DNA from: Chloroherpetonaceae bacterium
GTDB lineage: Bacteria > Bacteroidota > Chlorobiia > Chlorobiales > Thermochlorobacteraceae
Length of the DNA stretch: 64,000 nucleotides
Reading direction: 5' to 3'
Assembly (NCBI GenBank): GCA_033763895.1
Contig: JANRJQ010000004.1
Location: 124,001 to 188,000, forward strand
Shown here: piece after piece, positions 47,422 through 56,141 of the stretch
Layout of the letters: the number at the start of each line of letters is the position of its first letter
How positions within the stretch are numbered: position 1 is the stretch's first letter
The notes under the pieces: generated by a model
Told to the model about the DNA's origin: nothing
Databases searched by the model: none
The model's input: only the letters and a program-made list of their open reading frames with translations
Position numbers and translations under genes: made by a program

Positions 47422-48882
47422 TTATCGAATATCAAAGCGAAGAAAGAGCACAAAGGCAAGAGCAAAAAATGAAAGCGCGTAAAAGATGAGAAGCCCGATA
47501 TCGGGAAGTATTTTTTCAGTTATCGACAATCCACTTTGAATCGGCGGTTGAAATACAGGCATGTTTTCGAAATTGAGCCGCATTGAACTTGCTCCGTGAA
47601 CTTTTATACCGTTTTTATCAAAATGAATCGTAAATCCATTATTACTCCCCGATTCTTTCTGCTTTTGATTGATATAGGTAATAAACCTATCTCTGTAACT
47701 CCGAATCGCGGATTCGTATCGATATTTTGTCTCAACATCCGTTTCGGCCAAACTCATTGAGGCTAATTGAAACGCTGAAGAAGGAGAAATTCGAGAGATC
47801 CAAAGTGCTAAGTCTTCTTGGGCAGCTTGTTGATTTGCCGCTTCTTCATTGGTTTTACGGTTAAACTCCGCGATCTCGGCATCCAATTTCTTTTGGAGTG
47901 CTTCACTTTCTTCTTTGATATCCCAGTTCATTTCGGCTGATTTGGCATCTCTTTCTTTCGGGGTTAAGGTCTCGAGGGTTTTATTGTACTTCTCATATAA
48001 TTCCATTTCCCTTTTCATTTTCTCATCCCACTTTGATTTACTGAATGCTTCCATTTTTGTGTCAAGTTCAGAAATACTTGGTATTGGTATCACTTCACTT
48101 GCAATCATCATTCCCGCTCTCGGTAAAATGAGCACAAAGGTTATCCATAAGGAGATAAGCACAAGAAAAGAGGTCGCTGAATTTCTTACAGACGAGGAAA
48201 CCAAAATCCCAAGGAGGATAAAGACTATAAAATGAGATAAGCCCAGCGCAATAATCGCGCAAGCCTTTAACCAATGCTCCGGTTCCATTGGCACACCAAA
48301 AAGAACAACGATGAGAAATGAAAGTAAAACGGGAATTAACAATGGAAAGCATAGGGCAAATATGGCGCCAAGCGCTTTGGCGGAAATAAAAAGAGCTCGG
48401 GGAATTGAATTTGAAAATGTGAGCTGCAATGTACCCGATTCCTTTTCTCCATTAATGGCATTAAATGTAAAGAGTATGGCAAAAAGCGATACCACAGTTT
48501 GAAAAATGAATACAAAATCAACCACGCGAAAAATTGCAAACACGGAATCTTCGGAATACAAACTTCCTTGCAACCTGTTTTCTTGCCATTTGCTTACTAT
48601 GGTTTTTCGTCCGATGTCGTTTTGTACACCGGAAGCAAATATCATAAGTGGATTTGGTTCACGAAATGCTCTTGTGTAAACCGAGCCCCAATTGGTTTGG
48701 CTTTGCAAGTCTTCGGCTGCAAGTTGGCGAGCAGTTTCATATTGATTTTTGGTTGCGTGGTATTCTTCTACACCCAAATAAACAGACAGAATGATGAGAA
48801 TCGACATCACTGAAAATGAAAGCACAAACTTAGGGCTTTGCAAAAACGCTTTCAATTCTTTTTCGATTAATAGCTTTAGCAT
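47422..48882 (-). CDS. ABC-2 type permease with large outer loop (second permease)
   Basis: 486-residue membrane protein. One helix at about 19-38 is followed by an outer loop of about 85 residues, a cluster of about five helices (about 125-275), a second long outer loop (about 280-450) with a charged helical segment KMKREMELYEKYNKTLETL, and a final helix at about 460-482. This layout fits the ABC-2/DUF3526 permease group. It is a paralogue of the next gene upstream (48901), sharing ENATLxLxFS-type and SIPRA(L/T)F segments. It is the last gene of the five-gene operon and probably forms a heterodimer with that paralogue. Confidence 0.85.
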   Translation of the reverse strand: MLKLLIEKELKAFLQSPKFVLSFSVMSILIILSVYLGVEEYHATKNQYETARQLAAEDLQSQTNWGSVYTRAFREPNPLMIFASGVQNDIGRKTIVSKWQENRLQGSLYSEDSVFAIFRVVDFVFIFQTVVSLFAILFTFNAINGEKESGTLQLTFSNSIPRALFISAKALGAIFALCFPLLIPVLLSFLIVVLFGVPMEPEHWLKACAIIALGLSHFIVFILLGILVSSSVRNSATSFLVLISLWITFVLILPRAGMMIASEVIPIPSISELDTKMEAFSKSKWDEKMKREMELYEKYNKTLETLTPKERDAKSAEMNWDIKEESEALQKKLDAEIAEFNRKTNEEAANQQAAQEDLALWISRISPSSAFQLASMSLAETDVETKYRYESAIRSYRDRFITYINQKQKESGSNNGFTIHFDKNGIKVHGASSMRLNFENMPVFQPPIQSGLSITEKILPDIGLLIFYALSFFALAFVLFLRFDIR

Positions 48883-48900
48883 AAGTAATTAAGTTGGAAT

Positions 48901-50319
48901 CTAACGAAGGTCATAGTTGAGAAATCGCTTAAACGCAATTGCGGTGAGGAGTATGGAAAAAAGCAAAAGCAATACCCCATCGACGAATACTTCCTGAAAC
49001 AGCGCGGCCAAATCCTTTCCCTTAAACTGAAATACCGGTAGCTCACTCACATCAATCGGTTTTGGGGGTGCGTTGCCCTGCTGAGAGAAAAACATTCTAA
49101 ATCCACCACCTTGTTTAACTCCCGTTTTTGAATACTGGAACTCTCCAAATACTTTTTGGTAATTTGCAGCGTTCTCATGAAACAGATTCTTTAAGGAGAT
49201 ATCGGTTTCGGCAAGCGTTGCGGCTGAAATGGCAAATACTGCTGAAGGAGAGACTTTGGCAATGTTTATCGCAAGGCTTTCACGTACTTTTTCTCGGTTC
49301 GAACGCTCTTCATTTAACCTTTTAGCCAAAGCTGAAAATTTAACCTCTCGCTCCTCGCTTTCTTTACTCATAAACTCATTGAATTTCTTCATCGCTGTTT
49401 CAGGATTCGTATCATTTGGGGACTTAAACTCAGACATCCTTTTTTGGGTTTCTGACCAAAGCTGCCGTGAATATTGACTTTTCTCTTTTGAAATGGCATC
49501 AAGATTAGGAACCTCAACCGCTCTACCGGCAAGCATGATCGAGGCTTTTGGCAAAACAATCACCATTATCACCCAAAGTGAAAGTAGAATGGAAAAGGAA
49601 TTGGCGCTTCTAACCGTGAAGGTAGAGACTGCGACAGAGAGGGTGATAAAAACCCCGAGATAAAGAAATCCTAATCCAATAATTCCAAGGAGCTTTAACC
49701 ACTCTTCGAGCGTTAACGACACAGATAAAACTTCTATCAGGATGAAACTGAGTAAAAATGGAATAACAAGCGGAAGAGTTAAAGAGAGATAAGCCCCTAT
49801 AACTTTTGAAAGGATAAACGTTGCTCGAGGGATACTTCCCGAGAAAATGAGTGCAAGGGTTGCATTTTCCTTTTCACCACAAACCGAATTGAAGGCAAAG
49901 ACAATCGCCACGAGTGATAAAATCACTTGAAATAAAAAACTTAAATCAAGCGCCTTAAATACGGCGTAAATAGGGTTTTGGCTAAAGTAACTATTGGTAG
50001 AAGAAAGTTCTCCTGAGGCTTGAACTGTGATTTGCTGACCAATATCATTCGAAACCCCCATTACAAGTGCCGAAAGAAAAGTAGGAGGAATTTGCACTTG
50101 ATGCCCACTTATAAGTCTCCAATCCGTGTAGCCTTCGTATTTTTTCAATACGGCTTTCACATCGGCTTCATGTCGCTCTTTGGAAAGTGTGTAGCTACGA
50201 ATTCCTGTATAGAAGGTAAGCAAAATGAGAATGGTGCTCAACGAAAACGTAATGAGAAATCGTGTTGAGTGAAACGTCTCCCGAAGTTCTTTTTCGAGAA
50301 GTATCAAAAATGTCTTCAT
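48901..50319 (-). CDS. ABC-2 type permease with large outer loop (first permease)
   Basis: 472 residues with the same topology as the permease at 47422: N-terminal helix (about 18-38), outer loop with GVSNDIGQQ (compare GVQNDIGRK in the paralogue), a helix cluster at about 125-265, a long charged outer region (about 270-430) with AKVSPSAVFAISAATLAETD (ISRISPSSAFQLASMSLAETD-like in the paralogue), and a last helix near 445-465. It overlaps the ATPase stop by 4 bp, so the two are translationally coupled. The substrate is unknown. Confidence 0.85.
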   Translation of the reverse strand: MKTFLILLEKELRETFHSTRFLITFSLSTILILLTFYTGIRSYTLSKERHEADVKAVLKKYEGYTDWRLISGHQVQIPPTFLSALVMGVSNDIGQQITVQASGELSSTNSYFSQNPIYAVFKALDLSFLFQVILSLVAIVFAFNSVCGEKENATLALIFSGSIPRATFILSKVIGAYLSLTLPLVIPFLLSFILIEVLSVSLTLEEWLKLLGIIGLGFLYLGVFITLSVAVSTFTVRSANSFSILLSLWVIMVIVLPKASIMLAGRAVEVPNLDAISKEKSQYSRQLWSETQKRMSEFKSPNDTNPETAMKKFNEFMSKESEEREVKFSALAKRLNEERSNREKVRESLAINIAKVSPSAVFAISAATLAETDISLKNLFHENAANYQKVFGEFQYSKTGVKQGGGFRMFFSQQGNAPPKPIDVSELPVFQFKGKDLAALFQEVFVDGVLLLLFSILLTAIAFKRFLNYDLR

Positions 50320-51107
50320 TGGCCCTCCGATTTTCCAAGGGTTTCAGAAGTCTCTTCCATATAACCCGACATATACTTCATATAAAGCTCTTCAAGATTT
50401 TCATCTTTGAGTTCCGCGCTTGTTTTTTGCATCACGAGTTTCCCTCGATTCATAATGCCAATGGTATCGGCAATCTCTTTGGCGCGGAAAATGTCGTGGG
50501 TGGACATTAATATGGCCTTGCCTTCAGCCCTTAGCTCTTCTAAGAGTTTAGAGAATTCAAACCCTGCTTTTGGGTCAAGCCCGGAGGTGGGTTCATCAAG
50601 CAAAATGGCAGGGGCATTTTTCAGGATTGCAATCGCAATTCCGCACTTTTGGCGCATTCCTTTGGAGAACTCTCTTAGCTTTTGATTGTGGGCTTCTTCC
50701 TGTAACCCTACGCGAAGCAATGTTCTACGGTAATCCTCTTTGGTTATGGATGTACTTCCCGAAAGCCGAGTAAAGAAATCAAGATTTTGAATGGCGGTGA
50801 AATCGGCGTAGAGCTTCACGTTTTCCGAAACGAAAGCGATATGCTTTTTAGCTTCAAGAGGGTCTTTATGTGTCGTGATTCCATTGATGCGTGCTTCACC
50901 TTCCGTGGGTTCAATAAAATTGAGAAAGAGATTCATCGTCGTGGTTTTTCCCGCACCATTCCCGCCAAGCATCGCATAGATTTCGCCGGGGTAAATGGCA
51001 ATCGAAAGATGATCGAGCGCCAAAGTTCCATCCTGATATTTTTTCGTAAGCCCAATTGCCTCAAGGAGCGGGGTACGATTGGCTGATAAAGATTCAGTTT
51101 GATTCAT
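50316..51107 (-). CDS. ABC transporter ATP-binding protein
   Basis: 263-residue ATPase of the exporter-type ABC-2 (CcmA/NatA-like) group. It has Walker A GGNGAGKTT (about 48-56), the signature FSKGMRQKCGIA (about 148) and Walker B PAILLDEPTSGLDP (about 166), with the switch His in STHDIF. The C-terminal tail is short and acidic. Its 3' end overlaps the first permease by 4 bp and its 5' end follows the NEW3-like gene by 2 bp, so all five genes form one unit. It energises the two permeases. Confidence 0.94.
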   Translation of the reverse strand: MNQTESLSANRTPLLEAIGLTKKYQDGTLALDHLSIAIYPGEIYAMLGGNGAGKTTTMNLFLNFIEPTEGEARINGITTHKDPLEAKKHIAFVSENVKLYADFTAIQNLDFFTRLSGSTSITKEDYRRTLLRVGLQEEAHNQKLREFSKGMRQKCGIAIAILKNAPAILLDEPTSGLDPKAGFEFSKLLEELRAEGKAILMSTHDIFRAKEIADTIGIMNRGKLVMQKTSAELKDENLEELYMKYMSGYMEETSETLGKSEGQ

Positions 51108-51109
51108 AA

Positions 51110-52615
51110 TTATCGCTTGATGATTTTGATTCCAAAAATTAGAAGACCGCCGACTGCTGCTACAATGAGCGTCACCAATAGAATGATGCCAAGAACATTG
51201 GTACCGGCAGGCACCTCAAGTGTTACAATTTTATCTTCTGCCGAAAGGGGCTGTCCATCAGCCTTTGCTGAGGTTTTAATACGTGCCTCATATTTGCCGA
51301 TAGAGATGTCTGCCGGAGATTTAAAGAACATTTCAACTTTCTTTTCTTCACTCGGGTTTAAGGAGTTGATAAACGAGGGTTGAAGTCGCTTTTCCCAACG
51401 AAACGGAAGCTCAACTTTCAATTCAATGTTATCAAGCCTTCGTGTTCCTTCATTTAAGACATCCAACTCCACCCGAACTTCTTCGCCCTTCTTTACGGTG
51501 TGGTAAAGCTGAACCGCCTTTACCGATATCTTTCCATTGCCTTTTGGAATCAGCTCAAGCCTTAGAAATCCAAGTCCTAATTTTTGCAGGGCTTTTTCAT
51601 TGGGTTCAAGCTCATCACTTTGAATAGCCATATCGGTAGGCAACGCCAAAACAAAAAATGTAAGTGTAGAATCAATTCGAAAAGATTCATTGGTTCGCTC
51701 GGGCAAATACAATTGAAGCGTGACTTTTCGGGTAGTGGCGGTCTCTATGGCTTTTATTTGAGTAAGGCGCGCATTGGTTGTAGGGTCGAGAAAGGTTTTG
51801 GTGATCTCTTTCGGTAAACCTACCACTTCCAAACGAAAGGCCGTGTTCATTCGGCTGTAGAGATCGAGGTTTAATTCATAATTGGCATTACTCCCTAAAT
51901 TCGCTTCCAACGAAAACACTCGAGCCTGAATATTAACCTGACTTCCCGATTCGTCATTTTGCAAGAAAATTTTTGGGCTTCGTGTTGAGCCGTTCCCATA
52001 AGAAAGTGCTACGGTAACTGCATCAAGATCTTGAAGCAGCGCAAAATCTAAAGTTTGAGGCTCTGCACTTTCCAGCGTTTCAATTTTTGCTTCATAGGGC
52101 TGACTAACAACCGCATTATCATTATTGAGAAGCGACACAAATACATTGTGAATATCATCGGGCTCAAGAAGTTTGTGCGTCTCGTCATCCATATTGGAGA
52201 GCTTTCGCAGTTCGGCACTTGAGCCTGAGAGATTTTTCAAGGTCAGTCGAACATGCTTTCTTCCATCTCGGCCTTGATATTTTATCGCTTTTTGAACCGA
52301 GACAAACTGTTTTGCGAAAAGCACTGCAAGCAACGATTGTTGATAATTCACCTCTGCATCGGCAAAAGCATTTTTTGCCCGATCCATCTCTTCACGAGAA
52401 ATTAATTTATCAGAGAATAGCTTTAACCGTCTTTCATAATCAGCTTTAGCCACTTCATAGGCATTCTTAGCTCTCTTTAAGCCAAGAAGCGGATAACTGT
52501 CGTCGCGTTGGTTAAACATTTGCGCGTTGCCAAGCACAGCTTGGAAGAGCATTAGCCACGAAAAAACACAAGCATAAAGCAAGCAAATGCGAAAGTTGAT
52601 TTTTTGGGAAACCAT
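51110..52615 (-). CDS. Membrane protein with HlyD-like hairpin and NEW3/CARDB-like domains
   Basis: About 501 residues from ATG 52615 (a TTG at 52630 abuts the previous stop). A signal peptide ends near LGNAQ. Next, residues about 45-100 read like the coiled-coil hairpin of membrane-fusion proteins: AKADYERRLKLFSDKLIS, then REEMDRAKNAFADAEVNY. Several beta-rich domains follow (about 115-460), and the last resembles NEW3/CARDB domains (KKGEEVRVELDVLNEG, LNPSEEKKVEMFF). A C-terminal membrane helix (about 470-492) ends in IIKR. The combination suggests a periplasmic adaptor for the ABC complex. I know no named family with this order. Confidence 0.75.
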   Translation of the reverse strand: MVSQKINFRICLLYACVFSWLMLFQAVLGNAQMFNQRDDSYPLLGLKRAKNAYEVAKADYERRLKLFSDKLISREEMDRAKNAFADAEVNYQQSLLAVLFAKQFVSVQKAIKYQGRDGRKHVRLTLKNLSGSSAELRKLSNMDDETHKLLEPDDIHNVFVSLLNNDNAVVSQPYEAKIETLESAEPQTLDFALLQDLDAVTVALSYGNGSTRSPKIFLQNDESGSQVNIQARVFSLEANLGSNANYELNLDLYSRMNTAFRLEVVGLPKEITKTFLDPTTNARLTQIKAIETATTRKVTLQLYLPERTNESFRIDSTLTFFVLALPTDMAIQSDELEPNEKALQKLGLGFLRLELIPKGNGKISVKAVQLYHTVKKGEEVRVELDVLNEGTRRLDNIELKVELPFRWEKRLQPSFINSLNPSEEKKVEMFFKSPADISIGKYEARIKTSAKADGQPLSAEDKIVTLEVPAGTNVLGIILLVTLIVAAVGGLLIFGIKIIKR

Positions 52616-52630
52616 CGATTTAATGGGCAA

Positions 52631-53365
52631 TTAATTGAGAATGATTCTTCTATTTTCAGAACTTTCTTTTGTGAATGGGACTTGTACGGTTTTGTTTTTT
52701 CTCTTGACGGTCAGTTGGGCTTTTTCGCCTACTTTAATTTTGTCGTAAGCTCTTTTAAGGTCATCGGTGGTTTTTATTGCTTCTCCATTGAGGAGCGTGG
52801 CGACATCGTCATCAAAAAGCGGACCTTCCCCGGCTTTCGATTCTTTTGCATTTGGGCCATTCCGTTGCATTAATCCAACAACTGTCACCCCTTTTGCTTC
52901 GTTGTTAAATATAGCGTCGAGCTCAGGAAGTACAAAGGGTTTCACTTTTCCTCCTGCACCTCCTGCCCCATCCATTTTAATGACAAAGTTTCCTTCATTT
53001 TTATTTGGGTCTCGTTTTTTGAAGGAAGCAAAAAATTGCTTGTCGCCTCGTTTGAAGAGCGCTTTGAGTTCATCACCCGACTTCAAGGAATCATAAAGTG
53101 CTTTAAGTGCCTTCGTCGTCGATATTTTCATTCGGTTTGCCATCACAAATTCGTCGCCTTGGTTGAATGAAGGCAGTTGAAGTGAATCATTTTTAGGCGT
53201 AGGAATTACTCGCTCCACTTTTATTGAGCCTCCTGTTTGTTTAAGAATCAATCCGATTTCCATCAACGCATAAACATTCTCTCCAGAAGACTGAATCACT
53301 TGGGCTTGAAGAGGAATGATAAAATGTAGAATAAGAGCGAAGAACAAATTTTTTTTCATTGACAT
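52631..53365 (-). CDS. Secreted double-PDZ-like protein without protease domain
   Basis: 244 residues. A signal peptide (MKKNLFFALILHFIIPLQAQ; a Met two codons upstream is also in frame) is followed by two PDZ-like units, about 28-115 (FNQGDEFVMANRMKISTTKALKALYDSLKSGDEL region) and about 150-235 (DDDVATLLNGEAIKTTDDLK...VGEKAQLTVKRKNK). Between them lies a Gly/Ala-rich loop. No serine-protease triad is present, so it probably binds peptide ends or scaffolds the periplasmic side of the ABC complex. It is the first gene of the operon and abuts the hairpin/NEW3 gene. Confidence 0.75.
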   Translation of the reverse strand: MSMKKNLFFALILHFIIPLQAQVIQSSGENVYALMEIGLILKQTGGSIKVERVIPTPKNDSLQLPSFNQGDEFVMANRMKISTTKALKALYDSLKSGDELKALFKRGDKQFFASFKKRDPNKNEGNFVIKMDGAGGAGGKVKPFVLPELDAIFNNEAKGVTVVGLMQRNGPNAKESKAGEGPLFDDDVATLLNGEAIKTTDDLKRAYDKIKVGEKAQLTVKRKNKTVQVPFTKESSENRRIILN

Positions 53366-53418
53366 GCACTGTTTAAGATTTTAAGACAATGCAATGTGCG
53401 AAGGAATCGAGAGGAAGT

Positions 53419-53447
53419 TGTTAAGGTGGTGCAAAACCTCTGTTAAG
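53419..53447. promoter_or_regulatory. Direct repeat TGTTAAG x2, 22-bp period, between divergent operons
   Basis: TGTTAAG occurs at 53419-53425 and 53441-53447, exactly 22 bp apart, on the same face of the helix, inside the 90-bp region shared by the ABC operon and the histidine kinase gene. Similar TTTAAG units lie at about 53368-53382. OmpR/PhoB-type regulators bind such direct repeats, and one is encoded two genes away. Confidence 0.4.
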
Positions 53448-53455
53448 AGTGAAAA

Positions 53456-55447
53456 ATGAATGTAAAGAATGTTAAAAAAGGCACTTCGCTTAAGCCTCTT
53501 ACTTATTTGTATCGTAGATTCAAGCGGGTTCCAATAAAAGTTATGATTAACAAGACATCAATACGATTACTCGCGGCGGGGCTTCTTTTCACCACAATTT
53601 TGGTGCTGGCCTATTTTCAGTATCACTGGATTAATGAGGTGAGCGAGGCGCAGGTATCGCAAATGAGAAAGAATACAGAGCGATCCTTGGGGTTATTCAT
53701 TCAAGAATTGGATGGAACGCTAACCGAATTGTATAAAACTTTTCGTCTCCCAGCTTCCAACAGTAACAATGAAATTGCTTTTCGGGTGGCTGAAAATCTT
53801 AGAAATTGGAAGTTAAGTTCAAAACATCCTGACCTTCTTTCTGAGGTGTACTTTGTTCAGTTTATTGGAAATGAACCCCTTATTTATCGAATAAGTAAAG
53901 ACGGGCAATTGACACTTTTAACCACTTATTCTCCGCTAATACAAAATCATTTAGCTGATTTACGCAGTCTCTATGCTCAGGGCATATTAAATGATTTTGA
54001 CACTTATTGCCATCTTGCTATTGATCTTATTCCAATTCCTGTTTATTTATTTTTACCACCTTTACCCAATTCCTCCATTCCAAATCTCGAAACAGGCTTG
54101 ATTCTTTTAGAATTGAATAGTGCTTTTATCACCAATAGCTATTTGCCAAATCTTAAAAAAGCCTATTTGCCAGATGATCAAATGGACTTAGCGTTATTTT
54201 CTTCGCGCAGTCTTCAAGAGCCCTATTTTTCATCCTCACCAACTATTGAAAACTACAATTCCTTTGATGTTAAAGCTCCTTTCGGATTTTTGCAGTATTC
54301 ATCTTCTCTCCCCTCTCGCATTTCCACTATTCAGTCATCAAGTATTCAAAAAATTAGTATCATCGCGCAACAAAAGTCGAATCAAGCGGTTATCTCAAAA
54401 AAGGACACGACGAATACCAGAAAAAAGAAAAGTACAATCAATTATTCATTCTCGTTTTCTGAAACAGCTCCTGCAATAAAGGATTCATCTTTTTTTGTAG
54501 GGTTCAATTCTTATCCTCAAAAAGCAAATGTGTTGCTTTCACCTGCTCCTGATTCTTCTGCACCGAAGCCCTTTGTAATTAAAACCTTTTACTCACAAGA
54601 TCGACAAATGTGGGAAATGCGAGTTCGCCACCGCGAAGGCTCTTTTGAGATTGCAGCGAAATCCTTACAACGGAAAAATTTTTTCATAAGCTTTGGGATT
54701 TTAGCCGTCCTCGGGCTTAGCATCGGACTTTTGGTTCTTTCAGCTGAGAGAGCCCAAAAACTTGCCGAGCGTCAAATGGAATTTGTGGCGGGGGTTTCGC
54801 ATGAACTTCGAACGCCGCTCGCGGTTATTCAGTCCGCCGGTGAAAATTTAGCCGATGGTATCACGGTTGGCGAAGAGAACACTGCCAAATACGGTGAGCT
54901 CATTAAGTCGGAAGGGAAACGGCTTGCCGAGATGGTTGAAGAAATTTTGGAATTCGCTGGCGTTGAATCCGGGAAGAAAAGCTACCGCTTTGAAGTCATC
55001 GATTTGAAGCCTGTAATTCTAGAAATTATCTCTGAATTTGAACAAACAGCATTGAAAGAAAATATTCGTTTCGAAGCCACTGTTCCCGAAACATTAAAGC
55101 CCTTGTTACTCGATAGGAAGTCGTTTCGCTCAGCAGTGATGAACCTCCTGCACAATGCACTTAAATACAGTAATGGAAAAAGCCCGATTATTCTTACCAT
55201 TTCAGAGCTTCACAGTTCAACACTTATTTCGGTGAAAGACTTTGGGCTTGGAATCAGCAAAGAAGATCAAGCGCACATTTTTGAACCGTTCTATCGTGCG
55301 AAATCCGTGCGCGACGCTCAGATAAAGGGAAATGGGCTTGGATTAAGCCTTGTCAAGCGCATAATGGATGCGCACAAAGGCAAAGTATTCCTTGAAAGCG
55401 AGTTACATCGCGGAAGTAATTTTACTCTTCTATTTCCAAATGGCTGA
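53456..55447 (+). CDS. Membrane sensor histidine kinase
   Basis: 663 residues from ATG 53456; ATG 53543 (MINKTSIRLLAAG) gives a more typical N terminus with the first membrane helix immediately following. Helix 1 is at about 34-53, a large periplasmic sensor region at about 55-405 has no recognised fold and includes a Ser-rich stretch, and helix 2 is at about 410-432. HisKA has VSHELRTPLAV (His449). The ATPase shows NLLHNALKYSNGK, DFGLGISKED and KGNGLGLSLVK. It overlaps the response regulator gene by 8 bp, so the pair is one unit facing away from the ABC operon. Confidence 0.94.
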   Translation: MNVKNVKKGTSLKPLTYLYRRFKRVPIKVMINKTSIRLLAAGLLFTTILVLAYFQYHWINEVSEAQVSQMRKNTERSLGLFIQELDGTLTELYKTFRLPASNSNNEIAFRVAENLRNWKLSSKHPDLLSEVYFVQFIGNEPLIYRISKDGQLTLLTTYSPLIQNHLADLRSLYAQGILNDFDTYCHLAIDLIPIPVYLFLPPLPNSSIPNLETGLILLELNSAFITNSYLPNLKKAYLPDDQMDLALFSSRSLQEPYFSSSPTIENYNSFDVKAPFGFLQYSSSLPSRISTIQSSSIQKISIIAQQKSNQAVISKKDTTNTRKKKSTINYSFSFSETAPAIKDSSFFVGFNSYPQKANVLLSPAPDSSAPKPFVIKTFYSQDRQMWEMRVRHREGSFEIAAKSLQRKNFFISFGILAVLGLSIGLLVLSAERAQKLAERQMEFVAGVSHELRTPLAVIQSAGENLADGITVGEENTAKYGELIKSEGKRLAEMVEEILEFAGVESGKKSYRFEVIDLKPVILEIISEFEQTALKENIRFEATVPETLKPLLLDRKSFRSAVMNLLHNALKYSNGKSPIILTISELHSSTLISVKDFGLGISKEDQAHIFEPFYRAKSVRDAQIKGNGLGLSLVKRIMDAHKGKVFLESELHRGSNFTLLFPNG

Positions 55448-56141
55448 ACCAATTAAAATTCTACTGATAGAAGACGAAGCCGGTATTGTTCTCACGCTTA
55501 CCGACCGTTTGAAAAGCGAGGGATTTCAGGTTGATTCCGAAAGGGACGGCGAAAAGGGTTTTCAACGCGCTTTGAAAGGACATTATGATGTGTGCATTAT
55601 CGATGTCATGCTTCCCAATAAATCAGGCTTTGATATCTGCCGCGATCTCCGCTCTGCCTCAATCTTTACACCAATTTTGATGCTTACCGCTCGCGGACAA
55701 ACCATCGATAAAGTGCTCGGCCTAAAACTCGGCGCCGATGATTATCTCACCAAGCCCTTCGATATGATGGAATTACTTGCCCGTTTAGAAGCCTTGCTTC
55801 GGCGAAACAGCAAACCTAAAAATGCAGTTGAGGTTCCGGATATCTTTCATATTGGGGAATGCATCATCAATTTCAAAACGATGGAAGTCAAAAAAAATGG
55901 GGAGACTTTAGAGCTTTCTGCAAAAGAATTTCAACTCCTCCGGTACTTCATCGAAAACAAAGGGAAACTGCTCTCACGTGAAATTTTGCTTAATGCCGTT
56001 TGGGGATATCATGCAATGCCCTCGACGCGTACCGTGGATGTGCACGTCGCGTGGCTTCGCCAAAAACTTGAACCCAATCCGAAAGCCCCACGCTTTATTC
56101 TTACTATGCACGGAATGGGATACAAATTTGTGGGTGAGTAA
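55440..56141 (+). CDS. OmpR/PhoB-family response regulator
   Basis: 233-residue DNA-binding regulator. The receiver has IEDEAG, phospho-Asp in CIIDVMLPNKSG (about 55) and LTKPFD (Lys about 105). The winged helix has ELSAKEFQLLRYFIENKGKLLSREILLNAVWGY and TRTVDVHVAWLRQKLE. ATG 55440 lies inside the kinase's last codons (ATGGCTGA), which implies coupling; an earlier in-frame ATG at 55368 within the kinase is ignored. It is a candidate regulator of the adjoining divergent ABC operon through the TGTTAAG repeats. Confidence 0.95.
   Translation: MAEPIKILLIEDEAGIVLTLTDRLKSEGFQVDSERDGEKGFQRALKGHYDVCIIDVMLPNKSGFDICRDLRSASIFTPILMLTARGQTIDKVLGLKLGADDYLTKPFDMMELLARLEALLRRNSKPKNAVEVPDIFHIGECIINFKTMEVKKNGETLELSAKEFQLLRYFIENKGKLLSREILLNAVWGYHAMPSTRTVDVHVAWLRQKLEPNPKAPRFILTMHGMGYKFVGE

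Follow-up and report, generated by a model that had tools for sequence, protein, structure and literature searches.

Genes at the locus

The window, as we call the whole stretch of DNA analyzed here, is 64,000 nucleotides of contig JANRJQ010000004.1 (positions 124,001 to 188,000) from Chloroherpetonaceae bacterium, assembly GCA_033763895.1. It contains five open reading frames on the minus strand, which encode a PDZ protein, a hairpin/NEW3 protein referred to here as the stalk, an ATP-binding cassette (ABC) ATPase and two permeases, P1 and P2; a histidine kinase and a regulator of OmpR type diverge from them. An earlier note, made from the DNA letters alone, had described this five-gene operon and its divergent partners, and all the reading frames were found where it had placed them. 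Features are listed by position in the window.

52631..53365, minus strand: PDZ gene; secreted 244-residue protein with two PDZ stretches (Pfam PDZ_2, 1.6e-11)
51110..52630, minus strand: stalk gene (hairpin/NEW3); Pfam match to NPCBM_assoc/NEW3 (2.3e-9) and matches to adaptor hairpin profiles
52397..52432, minus strand: RLS motif, R67-x3-L71-x6-S78, at the turn of the stalk hairpin
50316..51107, minus strand: ABC ATPase, 263 residues; ABC_tran 3.8e-27; Walker A GGNGAGKT, signature FSKGM
48901..50319, minus strand: permease P1, NosY-like fold; Pfam ABC2_membrane_2; PDB profile and Foldseek matches to NosY
47422..48882, minus strand: permease P2, paralog of P1; Pfam ABC2_membrane_2 and DUF3526
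53397..53447, minus strand: candidate operator, CTTAACA-N4-TTTTGCA-N4-CTTAACA at 53447-53419, with a weaker continuation, phased at 11 base pairs (bp), to 53397
53456..55447, plus strand: sensor histidine kinase (HisKA/HATPase_c); likely start 53543, a later Met
55368..56141, plus strand: OmpR/PhoB-type response regulator (Response_reg and Trans_reg_C); likely start 55440

The PDZ protein has a hydrophobic N-terminal segment (residues 6-24), in keeping with its earlier description as a secreted double-PDZ protein, and no protease domain accompanies its two PDZ stretches. Gene junctions had been described as 0-4 bp apart; at the PDZ-stalk boundary this stands if the stalk gene starts at the TTG at 52630, which leaves a gap of 0 bp, and does not stand for the ATG at 52615, an equally likely start that leaves 15 bp.

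Conservation of the module

An alignment-based scan of named genomes found 99 relatives of the stalk protein, and 80 loci were kept; a search of genome contigs with the window's stalk as a single sequence, in contrast, returned no relatives. The titles of the 80 loci name KSB1, Zixibacteria, Krumholzibacteria, Calditrichota, Ignavibacteria, Melioribacter, Balneola, Rhodothermia and Acidobacteriota, mostly as metagenome bins, for which taxon assignments need the usual caution; a cultured organism among them is Balneola sp. EhC07 (record NZ_LXYG01000019). The order NEW3-ATPase-P1-P2 occurs in 60 of the 70 non-redundant loci with enough flanking sequence, a PDZ homolog lies immediately upstream of the NEW3 gene in 65 of 83, and 50 of 69 have a kinase plus regulator in divergent orientation. 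Its recurrence across dozens of independent loci puts the arrangement far outside what chance would give, and conservation of gene order, proposed in the earlier note as the check on its idea, is borne out. Past these seven genes, no flanking gene recurs except PF00144, found in 5 of 89 flanking proteins, and the module therefore has clear edges. That the five genes and the kinase-regulator pair constitute one conserved module is well supported.

Searches at the level of Bacteroidota covered 389 or 394 genomes, depending on the test, and 98 genomes in the window's own order. A full-length stalk gene occurs in 23 other genomes among the 394, at 38-49% identity, and in none of the other 97 genomes of the order; a phylogenetic tree gives the window sequence a very long branch (1.65). 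Permeases occurring widely without the hairpin gene had been named in advance as evidence against a single machine. Among the 389 Bacteroidota genomes, to which this result applies, all 20 of the 20 genomes with a P1 homolog scoring below 1e-100 also hold a full-length stalk gene, which favors a single machine, and a detached copy appears just once, as a PDZ-P1-P2 group of genome G288. That group (contig 7, L158:7503-11298) lacks ATPase and stalk genes, while the main cluster of the same genome (L061) lacks the PDZ gene; the two may have one ATPase and stalk in common. In Rhodothermia-type clusters (L056:10985-12424 and L100:1-537), the usual place of the PDZ gene, upstream of the stalk gene, is taken by an additional permease gene of DUF3526 type.

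A TolC-docking signature on the stalk hairpin

The AlphaFold2 model of the stalk, built from 62 sequences, has a predicted local distance difference test (pLDDT) score of 88.8. It consists of an alpha-hairpin at residues 47-106 (helices 47-73 and 79-106), stacked immunoglobulin (Ig)-like beta domains at about 110-473, with NEW3 at 380-454, and a C-terminal helix at 479-505 that is a membrane anchor by hydropathy; the N-terminal hydrophobic segment is compatible with a signal peptide. The hairpin and NEW3 domain claimed for this protein are both present; the CARDB-like domain named with them has only a weak match, in 5 of 62 relatives.

The pattern at the turn of the hairpin, RxxxLxxxxxxS, is the TolC-binding motif shown by mutation in MacA, AcrA and HlyD (PMC3391258). 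In the 90 aligned sequences of a 92-sequence set, R67 is kept in 87 and L71 in 83, and these two positions have the lowest entropy of all those from 56 to 91; at position 78, 64 sequences have S and 16 have T, which makes S or T in 80 of 90. HlyD likewise has T in place of S, which is the most permissive position of the motif (PMC3391258). The stalk motif aligns without gaps and in register with the same motif of lipoyl-bearing adaptors and with that of the solved adaptor 4l8j. NCBIfam adaptor profiles match the hairpin (CzcB 6e-7, EmrA 7.6e-6). Adaptor profiles reach up to 39 of the 62 stalk members, with CzcB metal-efflux adaptors nearest. The hairpin is adaptor-like and the remainder of the stalk is not. 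Sequence and monomer model together suggest that the hairpin may dock to a TolC-family channel; the genome of the window (G000) has 14 TolC-family (OEP) domain matches, none of them linked to the cluster.

Permeases and ATPase

Both permeases score above the curated cut-off of Pfam model ABC2_membrane_2 (PF12679; 1.5e-25 and 4.2e-23), and P2, the distal one, also passes the DUF3526 cut-off (6.3e-10), whereas P1 does not. They are 34% identical to each other, in agreement with their earlier description as two paralogous ABC-2 permeases. The model of P1 (pLDDT 85.6) found NosY (7o0y_D) as its best Foldseek match, with an E-value of 2.9e-4 and a template modeling (TM) score of 0.77 on the target, and a P1 profile of 48 sequences, searched against the PDB, matched NosY alone (1.4e-11). 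The model contains long extra helices at 273-296 and 306-354, which would be periplasmic by analogy with ABC-2 topology. The permeases match ABC2_membrane_2 and NosY rather than the MacB/FtsX-type domain. The NosY-like profile and fold of P1 group the machine with ABC-2/NosY transporters and apart from MacB and LolCDE, so that the analogy to MacB- or Lol-like machines drawn in the earlier note survives loosely, as one of function, and fails for the permeases, whose closest solved relative is NosY and which are not of MacB, FtsX or LolC type.

The ATPase has the motif set of an active enzyme, with Walker A, signature, Walker B and H-loop all present, and its solved relatives include NosF and ABCA-type cassettes. 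Its best NCBIfam match, DrrA, falls below the cut-off (178.6 vs. 312.45), as does its score to GldA of the GldA-GldFG gliding ABC (148.6 vs. 402.6 bits).

An operator at the divergent promoter

Tandem TTAACA repeats occur in the divergent promoter of 44 of 49 loci. The form TTAACA-N4-TTAACA, with a 10-bp phase, was found in 34 of 38 other loci, where 0.1 would be expected, and the opposite strand never carries it; an array phased at 22 bp, as in the window, is present also in the L051-L070 relatives, and the window's regulator shares 55-61% identity with those of the L051-L072 group. In the 3.5 megabases of the window's genome, the exact operator pattern occurs once, at this locus, and matches with two mismatches are no commoner than those of a reversed-pattern control. 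Matches to the three-repeat pattern sit at the cluster in 10 of the 11 other genomes having a match (the exception is L084), and six further genomes have a perfect array at the cluster, with single-mismatch matches elsewhere at control level. Operator pattern searches of genomes at high stringency showed no target past the cluster. Since each genome tested has essentially no second copy of the operator, the kinase-regulator pair appears to serve this operon alone; like the module itself, this regulation is well supported.

The regulator probably binds the TTAACA repeats, to judge by sequence: units of about 6-7 bp are repeated directly, and in phase with the helix, within the promoter presumed to be under control, the arrangement by which OmpR/PhoB-type sites are recognized. 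The PhoP regulator of Mycobacterium tuberculosis has comparable 7-bp repeats with a 4-bp spacer (PMC4832192). Arrays of a different type, CTTAAAA, phased at 22 bp, lie at three other places in the window's genome (L190-L192 and L198-L200, on contigs C7, C8 and C10). A phosphate-regulon reading of the TTAACA repeats would depend on a likeness to Bacillus PhoP boxes, and the literature search gave it no direct support.

In one locus (L084:5211-7104), the operon is preceded not by the kinase-regulator pair but by genes for a BlaI repressor and a BlaR1-type M56 peptidase. Genes for class-C beta-lactamase-like enzymes (PF00144) and for S41 peptidases lie within or beside the operon in L074, L077, L082, L113 and L146, mostly in KSB1 bins; Pfam confirmed PF00144 in L077 and L082, and S41 in L082 and L146. 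The BlaI/BlaR1 replacement and these enzyme genes lean weakly toward a cell-wall or antimicrobial theme.

Relation to known systems

NosDFY resembles the module in its NosY-like permease fold and profile, in its NosF-related ATPase, and in encoding ATPase and permease separately, alongside a periplasmic partner. It differs in using one NosY where the module has two distinct permeases with long periplasmic helical insertions, in having the beta-helix NosD where the module has an Ig stalk with a hairpin, and in lacking a PDZ protein; a survey of flanking genes found no nosZ- or nosL-like gene recurring beside the cluster. With tripartite adaptors (HlyD, AcrA, MacA, CzcB) and MacAB-TolC, the module shares the adaptor-type alpha-hairpin with its RLS motif in register, and, by analogy, a mechanotransmission-like logic is plausibly shared with MacAB-TolC as well. 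MacAB, too, is under two-component control (PMC5985334). However, no lipoyl or beta-barrel domain was detected in the stalk, whose anchor is C-terminal and hairpin N-terminal, the permease is of ABC-2/NosY rather than MacB type, and the outer-membrane factor (OMF) is unlinked.

Other ABC-2 systems share fewer parts. DUF3526 systems with CobW and DUF5916 genes also pair ABC2_membrane_2/DUF3526 permeases with an ATPase, but without the hairpin/NEW3 stalk, the PDZ protein or the divergent kinase-regulator pair. Three sister loci of this kind (L159, L160 and L163) have ATPase-permease-permease genes beside a CobW/COG0523 GTPase gene and a gene for a DUF5916-type protein, confirmed by Pfam in L159 and alike by the start of the sequence in L160 and L163; they are possibly a metal-linked branch of DUF3526 transporters. 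In L162, a gene that by eye resembles a TonB receptor lies between ATPase and permeases. In the three-gene systems L068 and L069, from other Bacteroidota-level genomes, a NEW3 membrane protein adjoins an ABC ATPase and an ABC2 permease, but this NEW3 protein is shorter and aligns with the stalk in the C-terminal Ig part only, the permease is single, and PDZ protein and kinase pair are absent.

The earlier note had proposed one machine belonging to no named transporter class, and this proposal is strengthened by the conserved gene order. No match to the system as a whole was found in Pfam, NCBIfam or PADLOC, where pieces matched general families only, nor is the gene set described in the literature searched, a weak form of evidence since most subscription papers lie outside that search. 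A role in anti-phage defense was considered and set aside, PADLOC having given generic ATPase-type matches only. Parts and likely logic relate the module to mechanotransmission ABC machines and to tripartite pumps, and the combination fits neither definition. New with respect to the earlier note are the TolC-docking signature on the hairpin, the NosY-like profile and fold of the permease, and the conserved, genome-unique operator that ties the kinase pair to the operon.

Proposed mechanism and alternatives

We assign a probability of roughly 0.48 to the proposal that the module is an envelope-responsive ABC machine working by mechanotransmission, of the NosY type, with a stalk that docks onto a TolC-family channel. 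The kinase, which by hydropathy has a large extracytoplasmic region between two membrane segments, would detect an envelope signal, and the regulator, acting on the TTAACA repeats of the shared promoter, would turn on the PDZ, stalk, ATPase, P1 and P2 genes, making the machine self-contained and stress-inducible. One ATPase dimer would power a NosY-like P1/P2 heterodimer, whose long periplasmic helices would transmit movement to the stalk. With its C-terminus in the inner membrane, its Ig-like domains pointing upward and the adaptor-type alpha-hairpin at the end, the stalk would dock its RLS tip to a TolC-family outer-membrane channel, and perhaps open it, so that a periplasmic or inner-membrane substrate could be expelled in a manner like that of MacAB-TolC, by different parts. 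The PDZ protein may be a soluble periplasmic helper that presents or senses a client. In this scheme, the direction of transport, the substrate, the stoichiometry and the role of the PDZ protein are what we infer. More tentatively, the module may represent a trans-envelope ABC machine of an unrecognized class, one that joins a TolC-docking hairpin, borne on a C-terminally anchored Ig stalk of polarity opposite to that in known adaptors, to a permease heterodimer of NosY type, with a PDZ helper and a two-component switch of its own.

The use of another envelope sensor pair, BlaI/BlaR1, among the alternative regulators speaks for an envelope-responsive machine. Several observations weigh against the docking proposal. 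Neither lipoyl nor adaptor beta-barrel Pfam models match any of the 62 stalk members, and a Foldseek search with the stalk model lists generic Ig stacks only, with TM below 0.3 on the query, and no adaptor. There is no OMF gene in or beside the cluster, and no outer-membrane channel family recurs in the flanks. Adaptors dock as hexamers, whereas the stalk is seen here as a monomer model only. Divergent branches (L063-L065 and L147-L151) lack the PDZ gene and have the genes reordered. Finally, the OEP profile also touches 2 of the 62 stalk members, two-helix coils being alike. The hairpin was considered as an OMF fragment and this was rejected, as the OEP matches stop at those two members and a conserved Arg 11 residues before the Ser suits the adaptor motif; the adaptor reading of the hairpin is judged the better one, not proven.

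The nearness of the permease to NosY and the unlinked OMF gene would also suit a NosDFY- or Lol-like machine that works without outer-membrane docking, using conformational work to load, extract or mature a PDZ-bound periplasmic or lipoprotein client, with the hairpin serving assembly with the permease loops. NosDFY is itself an ABC machine with a periplasmic partner, and PDZ domains are usual binders of client tails. We nevertheless consider such a machine less likely: it leaves unexplained why conservation at the hairpin tip peaks at R67 and L71, spaced exactly as in RLS; the flanking genes show no recurrent client family; and NosD is not among the Foldseek matches listed for the stalk. An exporter for drug or peptide resistance or sensing, of the BceAB or DrrAB kind, confined to the inner membrane and sensed by the kinase through its flux, appears improbable. 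Linkage of a kinase-regulator pair to one target operon speaks for it, DrrA is the best, if sub-threshold, NCBIfam match of the ATPase, and penicillin-sensing-type BlaI/BlaR1 in one locus and class-C beta-lactamase-like genes in or beside some clusters point the same way. But the shortfall of the DrrA score counts against it, PF00144 enzymes are diverse and not necessarily beta-lactamases, and the stalk and PDZ genes are left without explanation. It is very doubtful that the branch instead moves or inserts metal, as might be guessed from the sister permease pairs adjoining CobW/COG0523 and outer-membrane-type proteins, from CzcB as the nearest hairpin profile, and from the service of NosDFY in copper-site assembly; no metal gene recurs beside the seven-gene cluster, and the sister permeases are only about 21-30% similar.

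Significance

The module is probably a seven-gene, sensor-controlled membrane machine that uses ATP for work across the cell envelope, and it may connect to the outer-membrane channels that serve drug pumps as exits. If the docking proposal is true, annotation has been missing an entire class of ABC machines that make use of TolC-type exit ducts, since their adaptor lacks lipoyl and beta-barrel domains, and the docking hairpin is a module that can be carried from one protein to another. The system, with its single sensor, single operator and single machine, would offer a compact model of envelope response in many little-studied phyla, one in which the inducing signal and the substrate are both directly testable.

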